A DNA stretch of 64,000 bases from Haloarcula rubra (GTDB lineage Archaea; Halobacteriota; Halobacteria; Halobacteriales; Haloarculaceae), in NCBI RefSeq assembly GCF_019599465.1, contig NZ_RKLR01000002.1, forward strand, positions 434,001 through 498,000, read 5' to 3'. A program made the position numbers and the translations under genes. The notes under the pieces were generated by a model that did no database searches, was not told where the DNA came from, and saw only the letters and a program-made list of their open reading frames with translations. Positions 12,443-13,720 of the stretch are shown here, one piece after another. Numbering within the stretch: position 1 is the first letter of the stretch; each line of letters starts with the position of its first letter.

Positions 12443-13720
12443 ATGGAGGTCCAGTTCCTCGGCGGCGCCGACGAGATAGGTCGGAGCGCCGTCCTCGTGG
12501 ACGACTCGCTGTTGCTCGACTACGGGATGGCCAGCGAGTCGCCACCGCAGTACCCCGTCGGCGACGTCGACCCCGACGCCGTCGTGGTCAGCCACGGCCA
12601 CTTAGACCACGCCGGAGCGGTGCCGGCGCTGATGTCCAGCGGGGACCTGCCGCCGGTCCACTGGACGCCGCCGACCCGCGACCTCGCGACGACGCTGGCC
12701 GAGGACACGCTGAAACTCCACGGCTCGACCCCGCGCTGTCCGTTCACCGACACGGACGTGCGCCGTCTCACGCAGGCGTCGGTGACCCACGGCTACGGTG
12801 AGTCCTTCGAGGCGGCCGGCTACGATGTGACGCTGTACAACGCCGGCCACATCCCCGGGAGCGCGCACGTCCTCGTGGACGACAGCGAGGTACGACGTAC
12901 CTCGGGCAATCGGACGCAGTCCGATGACGGCGAGACGCAGTTGCTCTACACGGGCGACTTCCACACCGGGACCCAGCGACTCGTCGCTCCCTCCACCGCA
13001 CGTCCCGAGGTCGACGCCGTAATCTGCGAGTCAACGTACTCCGACGTGACCCACGAGGCCCGCGAGACGGTCGAGAAGCGGTTCGTCGAGAGCGTCCGCC
13101 AGACCGTCTGGGAGGGCGGGACCGTCGTCGTCCCCGCGTTCGCCATCGGCCGTACGCAGGAGGTGATGCTCGTCTGTGCGGCCCACGACGTCGACTGCTA
13201 CGTCGACGGGATGGGTCAGCGAGTCACCGAGCAACTGAAACGCCACCCGGAGTTCCTGCGGGACGCCGACGCGCTCTCGGGCGCGACCTCGGCGGCGCGG
13301 TTCGTCGACGGGCGCGACGGCCAACGGAAGCGTATCGCGAAGCAGAACACCGTCATCGTCACCACGAGCGGGATGCTCTCGGGCGGGCCGGCGATGACCT
13401 ACGTCCCCGCCATCCGCCAGCACCCGACGAACAAGGTGGCGTTGACCGGGTATCAGGTCGAGGGGACGCCCGGCCGCGAACTCCTGGAGACGGGCAGTGC
13501 CGAACTCGACGGGCGGGTGCTGCCGGTGAGCGCACAGGTGGAACTCCACCAGTTCTCGGCCCACGCCGACCGCGAGGGGCTACTCGACTTCCTCGATAGC
13601 TACCGGGACACGGCGGTTCTGGTCAACCACGGCGACCGGACGGCGGCCTTCGCCGAGGCGTTGCGTGCCGACGGCTTCACTGCGAGCGCGCCCGAACTCG
13701 GCGAGACGGTCGAACTCTGA
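12443..13720 (+). CDS. Metallo-beta-lactamase/beta-CASP RNA-processing nuclease-like protein
   Basis: A 425-residue beta-CASP protein related to archaeal CPSF73-like nucleases. The zinc motif HGHLDH is at residues 51-56, HIPGSAHVL near 136, the aspartate motif LLYTGDFH near 167, then the beta-CASP cap (VVVPAFAIGRTQEVM, TTSGMLSGGP), and the C-terminal QFSAHADREGL and NHGDR motifs. It lacks the N-terminal KH domains of aCPSF1, so it is a short aCPSF2-type enzyme. Residues about 148-162 are an insertion encoded by two perfect DNA hairpins (12887-12925), just before the GDFH motif. All active-site motifs remain, so the gene is probably functional. Confidence 0.88.
   Translation: MEVQFLGGADEIGRSAVLVDDSLLLDYGMASESPPQYPVGDVDPDAVVVSHGHLDHAGAVPALMSSGDLPPVHWTPPTRDLATTLAEDTLKLHGSTPRCPFTDTDVRRLTQASVTHGYGESFEAAGYDVTLYNAGHIPGSAHVLVDDSEVRRTSGNRTQSDDGETQLLYTGDFHTGTQRLVAPSTARPEVDAVICESTYSDVTHEARETVEKRFVESVRQTVWEGGTVVVPAFAIGRTQEVMLVCAAHDVDCYVDGMGQRVTEQLKRHPEFLRDADALSGATSAARFVDGRDGQRKRIAKQNTVIVTTSGMLSGGPAMTYVPAIRQHPTNKVALTGYQVEGTPGRELLETGSAELDGRVLPVSAQVELHQFSAHADREGLLDFLDSYRDTAVLVNHGDRTAAFAEALRADGFTASAPELGETVEL
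12887..12925. repeat. Two perfect hairpins inserted in frame in the beta-CASP gene
   Basis: GAGGTAC-GAC-GTACCTC at 12887-12903 and ATCGGAC-GCA-GTCCGAT at 12909-12925 each have 7-bp perfect arms around a 3-base loop closed by C-G, separated by 5 bases. They encode residues EVRRTS and NRTQSD between HVLVDD and the conserved GETQLLYTGDF segment, so reading continues in frame. Confidence 0.85.

Follow-up and report, generated by a model that had tools for sequence, protein, structure and literature searches.

A 45-bp double-hairpin unit inserted in a beta-CASP nuclease gene of Haloarcula rubra is a copy of a large haloarchaeal family

The window, a stretch of 64,000 nucleotides of the Haloarcula rubra genome, contained on its forward strand an ORF of 425 amino acids (12443..13720) coding for a beta-CASP/RMMBL metallo-beta-lactamase nuclease, with the Pfam domains Lactamase_B, Beta-Casp, and RMMBL. 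The protein is aCPSF2-like; it is shorter than aCPSF1 (arCOG00543), scored 247.5 bits with the NCBIfam model of the latter, which is below the curated 580, and no KH region was found in it, placing it outside aCPSF1. Its nearest solved chains were 2xr1, 3af5, and 2ycb. Codons 148-162 of this gene are formed by an inserted element of 45 bp (SEVRRTSGNRTQSDD; 12884..12928, +), as delimited by empty and filled orthologues. A GAC triplet directly 5' of the element (12881..12883, +) belongs to the target side, as judged from the flank contexts and from exact filled and empty pairs in DUF302 genes and IS605 right ends, and a second GAC (12926..12928, +), part of the 45-bp insert, forms the element's own 3' end. 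In between are found hairpin 1 (12886..12904, +; 8-bp stem, loop GAC), supported by pairing and the alignment of copies, a spacer GGCA (12905..12908, +), and hairpin 2 (12909..12925, +; 7-bp stem, loop GCA), supported by pairing and by pattern and model searches. The sequence-only reading had reported two perfect hairpins with 7-bp arms and 3-base loops, and both were indeed retrieved: GAGGTAC-GAC-GTACCTC at 12887-12903, where an extra C-G pair (12886/12904) makes an 8-bp stem, and ATCGGAC-GCA-GTCCGAT at 12909-12925. Both being present, they are near-adjacent rather than touching, and not strictly side by side as described, since GGCA intervenes (4-5 bases apart). The addition of about 15 residues without frameshift was borne out too: the insertion comprises exactly 15 codons, through which the 425-aa ORF reads.

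Perfect hairpins with a 7-bp stem and a 3-base loop numbered 27 in the GC-rich window versus a mean of 11.9 in dinucleotide shuffles. The only tandem pair within 8 bases was that at 12887-12925, with an expectation of 0.05 (shuffled mean) or 0.10 (observed hairpin density). The decisive support for accepting this pair as real was comparative: a covariance model, R1, built from 69 copies, scored 72.1 bits at 12881-12928, compared with 18.1 bits at the next best site of the window. The two hairpins at 12887-12925 are thus one copy of a large family. An intergenic family with a similar loop had been invoked for hairpin 2 by the sequence-only reading; the other 7/3 hairpins of the window, however, belong outside the element family.

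Orthologues of the nuclease were present in the family genomes searched (146). Full reading of 70 of them, a sample biased to long genes, revealed nine with the insert at the main site, the remainder having DDGE/DTRLLY. The expected absence of the insert from close relatives was thereby confirmed, as most orthologues, including the sister gene (L005; DDGDTRLLY), were without any loop instead of having one of equal length with unrelated codons, which would have pointed to an ancestral loop. The empty form GACGAC/GGCGAG (the slash marks the insertion point) and the filled form GACGAC/AGCGAGGTACGACGTACCTCGGGCAATCGGACGCAGTCCGATGAC/GGCGAG differ by exactly 45 bp. Carriers occurred in several genera, and more of them came to light in other families (Halorussus, Halovivax, and Natrinema); in a tree of 74 orthologues from which the insert columns were removed, the 16 carriers required at least 11 gains or losses, with L005 as the empty sister. 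In addition, the nuclease gene of a congener (L016) contained the double-hairpin unit at a second site, after residue 19. Main-site carriers have sub-sequences in common (GAGGTnCGA), also across genera, so that much of the scatter may be due to inheritance or gene transfer at this site instead of repeated landing; part of it is probably explained by descent or gene transfer followed by loss rather than by fresh insertion. The closest same-site carriers, L001 and L004, differ by a compensatory synonymous pair in stem 1 (GTA/CGT to GTG/CGC), and in stem 2 of L004 one pair is broken. An alignment with solved homologues places the insert in a short linker with gaps that joins the GHIxGSA motif to the LLYTGDF strand. 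This position would fit a tolerated turn, and the 15 added residues probably make up an exposed loop that is close to neutral. A structure prediction of the nuclease from seven sequences (mean pLDDT 52.8) was too poor for assessing exposure or metal distance.

Other nuclease orthologues contained further insertions. A degenerate insert (SGGDRASDSGAGSDDA) occurred after residue 19, the second insertion place, in L011 (genome G012) and is perhaps a decayed copy of the unit. Outside the element family are the in-frame inserts HRGSDAPASRTDRHGEPIRG before QRLV (L034, L038, L040, L048, L055-L057, and L059), GVSSSGARRGSRDYRSR after LKLH (L046-L049 and L067), and one of 18 residues after GQRK in a Halovivax gene (L115).

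The search for the same hairpins in other genes, suggested by the sequence-only reading, retrieved about 40 other, unrelated gene families with the unit in frame. The host peptides formed 52 clusters, corresponding to approximately 40-43 true coding families. Pfam-verified hosts were DNA polymerase X, a class I tRNA synthetase (Val/Ile/Leu type), PEP synthase, EPSP synthase, adenylosuccinate synthetase, carboxypeptidase Taq, CofD, DUF302, histidine kinase, ribosomal protein L2 (uL2), V-type ATP synthase subunit E, the aconitase family, a HerA-type ATPase, CobN, and a CBS/MaoC protein. In the case of DUF302, five filled genes were found versus 28 empty ones, with exact ends (GTCGAC/GCC versus GTCGAC/45 bp/GCC). 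Codon usage allowed a clear assignment of the frame for 75 copies, of which 74 share one frame, the exception being the unit read on the opposite strand. The consensus is open in all six frames, yet hydrophobic residues are absent only from the peptide of the observed frame. Histidine kinases L303, L311, L312, L314, L315, and L316 carried one to four tandem 45-bp units at the N-box (NSVEHGST..RTESDDSVEHG), where hairpin 1 encodes VEHG and thereby repeats the N-box motif.

The hairpin 2 core (RTCGGACGCAGTCCGAYGA, at most one mismatch) was retrieved in 90 of the 293 genomes of the order, with about 155 matches, versus none in any of these 293 genomes for the reversed-pattern control; in two genomes, copies were exactly 45 bp apart. 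A 21-base pattern matched 77 stretches in a genome collection of 257 Gb, 76 of them haloarchaeal. The R1 model found the family in 182 of 243 Halobacteriales genomes and in 63 of 77 genera, with at most some 25 candidates counted per genome; in a phylum-wide sample, 13 of 19 genomes within the order gave matches versus none of 101 elsewhere in the phylum. The window copy was the only intact one in its own genome, where weak candidates of 20-28 bits occurred in histidine-kinase genes (L198, L199, L200, L202, and L204); the conserved N-box NAVEHG may itself raise the scores of these candidates. The same genome (G000) had 21 TnpB zinc-ribbon and two Y1 transposase matches, yet one intact element copy. 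Plasmids gave no match in a tblastn search with the local peptide, and matches were obtained with the DNA consensus. On viral contigs, the 14 core-pattern matches came nearly all from one phage gene family without hairpin 1 and were taken as chance. No account of the present family turned up in the open-access literature searched, and it is apparently undescribed so far.

The layout of the unit is RAC on the target side, then AG, hairpin 1 (about 8-3-8), (G/A)GCA, hairpin 2 (7-3-7), and GAC, followed by a G of the target, normally amounting to 45 bp. The spacer was AGCA in 32, GGCA in 17, and GACA in nine of 69 copies, and hairpin 2, with its GNA loop, is the conserved core of the family. Of 112 distinct contexts, 63 had GAC and 17 had AAC as the codon on the left flank, and the filled and empty sites point to a preference of the element for RAC/G targets; a left flank AAC combined with a right end GAC means that there is no clean 3-bp target duplication. 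Stem 1, which was left out of the search pattern, varies greatly in sequence and keeps its pairing. Indeed, in 69 distinct copies at fixed register, 82% of its pairs were Watson-Crick, compared with 54% (maximum 58.5%) when the 3' letters were shuffled among copies and 22-32% when the arms were slid. Both-sided changes occurred in 13 of 15 pairs of the R1 alignment, which was pre-filtered for pairing and thus leans to structure. The pattern of stem 1 would be expected from structural selection and equally from replication correcting imperfect palindromes. As a rival explanation, the hairpins could be kept for a role in the mRNA, such as processing or pausing, or at the DNA level, for instance self-control of an RNase gene. 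Such a function would agree with the maintained pairing, including the synonymous compensatory pair between L001 and L004, and with an RNA fold z of -2.44; however, the unit resides in some 40 unrelated host genes, most orthologues lack it, stem 2 is broken in L004, and Rfam contains no family corresponding to the double-hairpin unit, making a functional role very unlikely. Alternatively, the hairpins could be products of template switching at quasi-palindromes, created and kept perfect during replication and spread by gene conversion and gene transfer, with no transposition enzyme. Perfect stems of freely varying sequence, the tandem 45-bp steps, and the same-site sub-sequences common to different genera are in line with this. 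Stem 2, the spacer, and the ends are, however, conserved across unrelated genes and non-coding sites, so that copying of a defined unit is needed and not de novo formation, and template switching is a rather improbable origin.

The non-coding copies have exact ends as well. Plasmid copies flagged as intergenic adjoin genes annotated as tnpB/tnpA (TnpB/IS200-IS605) or transposase, on the opposite strand. The conserved right end of such TnpB elements is a small hairpin, for example TGACATCCTCCGCGCCGTGAACGGCGCGGCTTCC, and in filled right ends its loop is opened after GTGAAC by 45-47 bp bearing both family hairpins and the terminal GAC (GTGAAC/GGCGCGG versus GTGAAC/45-47 bp/GGCGCGG). Among 293 genomes, junction patterns retrieved filled right ends in 28 and empty ones in 111. 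Eight of ten filled-junction loci fetched from the genomes contained the 47-bp insert in full or in a closely similar form; L355, which is among these eight, is the same place as L075. Examples of empty right ends are L273, L269, and L276, and of filled ones L075, L318, L319, L322-L324, L358, and L359. Presence and absence of the unit with exact ends at orthologous sites thus occur not only in genes but also in IS200/IS605-type right ends, where, these being non-coding, no reading frame can impose the ends. Together with the empty orthologues, the second site in L016, and the other host genes, these right ends uphold the earlier view of a hairpin element that landed in a coding region. Under another explanation, the insert would be an inherited surface loop, acidic and rich in turns, whose GC-rich codons give rise to the hairpins incidentally. 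This would agree with the peptide, which is fully hydrophilic and suits haloarchaeal surfaces; nevertheless, the same DNA unit occurs in non-coding right ends and intergenic arrays, and the stem pairing exceeds the column-shuffle controls, leaving this explanation a negligible chance. A wholly ancestral loop was rejected, because most orthologues of the nuclease and of DUF302 are empty. In the Halorubrum-like genomes G148 and G186, intergenic chains of several 7-3-7 hairpins occurred at many loci (L299-L302 and L306-L310); they share about 200 bp of common sequence, ending in CTCGCGCGTGC...GCACGCGCCACCGC, and correspond to no Rfam family.

The right ends also bear on whether the unit is a fragment or a terminal-only derivative (PATE) of IS200/IS605-type TnpB elements, that is, a piece of the right end and omega-RNA scaffold moved in trans by TnpA. 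Some TnpB right ends do contain the unit, with R1 scores up to 63.9 bits and next to tnpB and tnpA, and a 52-bp terminal-only PATE, possibly mobile, has been described in Haloquadratum (PMC3119063). However, in these right ends the unit itself interrupts the loop of a hairpin that is shorter and commoner, and it is hence a guest and not the end proper; only one of 30 sampled TnpB loci clearly carried it, the right-end tip TGACATCCTCC is missing from the coding copies, and genome G074 contained copies with neither TnpB nor Y1_Tnp matched. An IS605 remnant is therefore an unlikely origin, although one to be kept in mind. As a guest in the right-end loop, the unit should alter the predicted omega-RNA scaffold of these TnpB elements.

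In view of these data, the nuclease insert very probably belongs to a family of tiny, non-autonomous insertion units that is spread over the haloarchaea; the units occur singly or in tandem 45-bp steps and would move as DNA. Such a unit would be copied or moved most likely as a folded single strand, which may be cut at its RAC/GAC feet by a trans-acting enzyme of the HUH/Y1 or another type. Since the length of 45 bp is divisible by three and a soluble, turn-like peptide (D-SEGRSPSGSRTQS-DD) is encoded in one frame, copies landing in that frame behind a turn codon (GAC or AAC) would survive, and the frame bias would reflect a survival filter by selection. Copies may be lost cleanly via slippage or recombination between the flanking GAC repeats, resulting in a patchy distribution. 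Repeat-mediated deletions have been described in haloarchaea (PMC3119063), and an exact 45-bp loss between GAC repeats would fit these by analogy. Y1 transposase matches were found in 152 of 243 genomes of the order and in neither of the high-copy genomes G148 and G186. Co-occurrence across genomes hence does not support a Y1 transposase as a requirement, although Y1 enzymes may have mobilised the units in the past. A wider proposal, the chances of which we regard as evenly balanced, is that of a pan-order class of self-inserting double-hairpin elements in Halobacteria that would be spread by unrecognised machinery on folded single strands, adding 15-residue turn peptides to core enzymes and uL2, and also lodging in TnpB RNA-guide scaffolds.

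To our knowledge, in-frame selfish palindromes have so far been treated as a peculiarity of Rickettsia. The same phenomenon, in a smaller form, is encountered here in core genes of a free-living archaeal order, with filled and empty alleles in tractable hosts. How conserved proteins acquire new peptide segments, whether selection acts on DNA hairpins themselves as units, and by what means the 'enigmatic' haloarchaeal SMR elements move thereby become testable questions. The family is also a warning that indels in haloarchaeal alignments, including those of histidine kinases near the N-box, are often mobile DNA rather than adaptation.

Among known systems, the bacterial REP/REPIN elements (RAYT transposase) are short, dispersed, extragenic palindromes with a conserved foot, possibly mobilised by Y1 enzymes. 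The haloarchaeal unit shares the short dispersed palindromes, the conserved foot, and a possible Y1 mobilisation with them, but it is mostly intragenic and its distribution requires no Y1 gene. Similarly, PATE and IS200/IS605 ends with their omega-RNA have subterminal hairpins and no target duplication, and some right ends contain the unit (PMC3119063, PMC12558985); the coding copies, starting with AG and ending with GAC, nevertheless lack the tip, which lies outside the unit, as well as a left end and genes. The nearest described kinds are SMR-A, double-hairpin elements (DHE), and Rickettsia palindromic elements (RPE), none of which is a demonstrated match. DHE are known from the mitochondria of Allomyces and Schizosaccharomyces octosporus (cited in PMC10085805), and RHE from sponges (PMC2800124). 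As far as these accounts describe them, DHE likewise consist of two tandem small hairpins, dispersed, with a mobility deduced from their presence and absence, and forming multi-hairpin chains, but they are organellar, mostly intergenic or in rRNA, and apparently of other sequence, the comparison being one by description. SMR-A of Haloquadratum walsbyi is approximately 110 bp long with prominent terminal inverted repeats, and its mobilisation has been called enigmatic (PMC3119063). Like the unit, it is haloarchaeal, too short for a transposase, and without clear target duplication (PMC3119063), and it inserts within near-terminal palindromes of IS605-type elements, as do the copies in filled right-end hairpins. 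In contrast, the unit measures 45-47 bp, has two internal hairpins, and its ends (AG...GAC) are not inverted repeats; in-frame gene insertions are not described for SMR-A in PMC3119063, the comparison again being one by description. RPE, about 150 bp long and restricted to Rickettsia (summarised in PMC10969869), are palindromic units lying in frame in many unrelated genes and adding a conserved peptide, as the unit does (74 of 75 copies; about 40 families). Unlike RPE, it is 45 bp long, has two separate hairpins and another sequence, and belongs to an archaeal order, with 76 of 77 pattern matches in Halobacteria.
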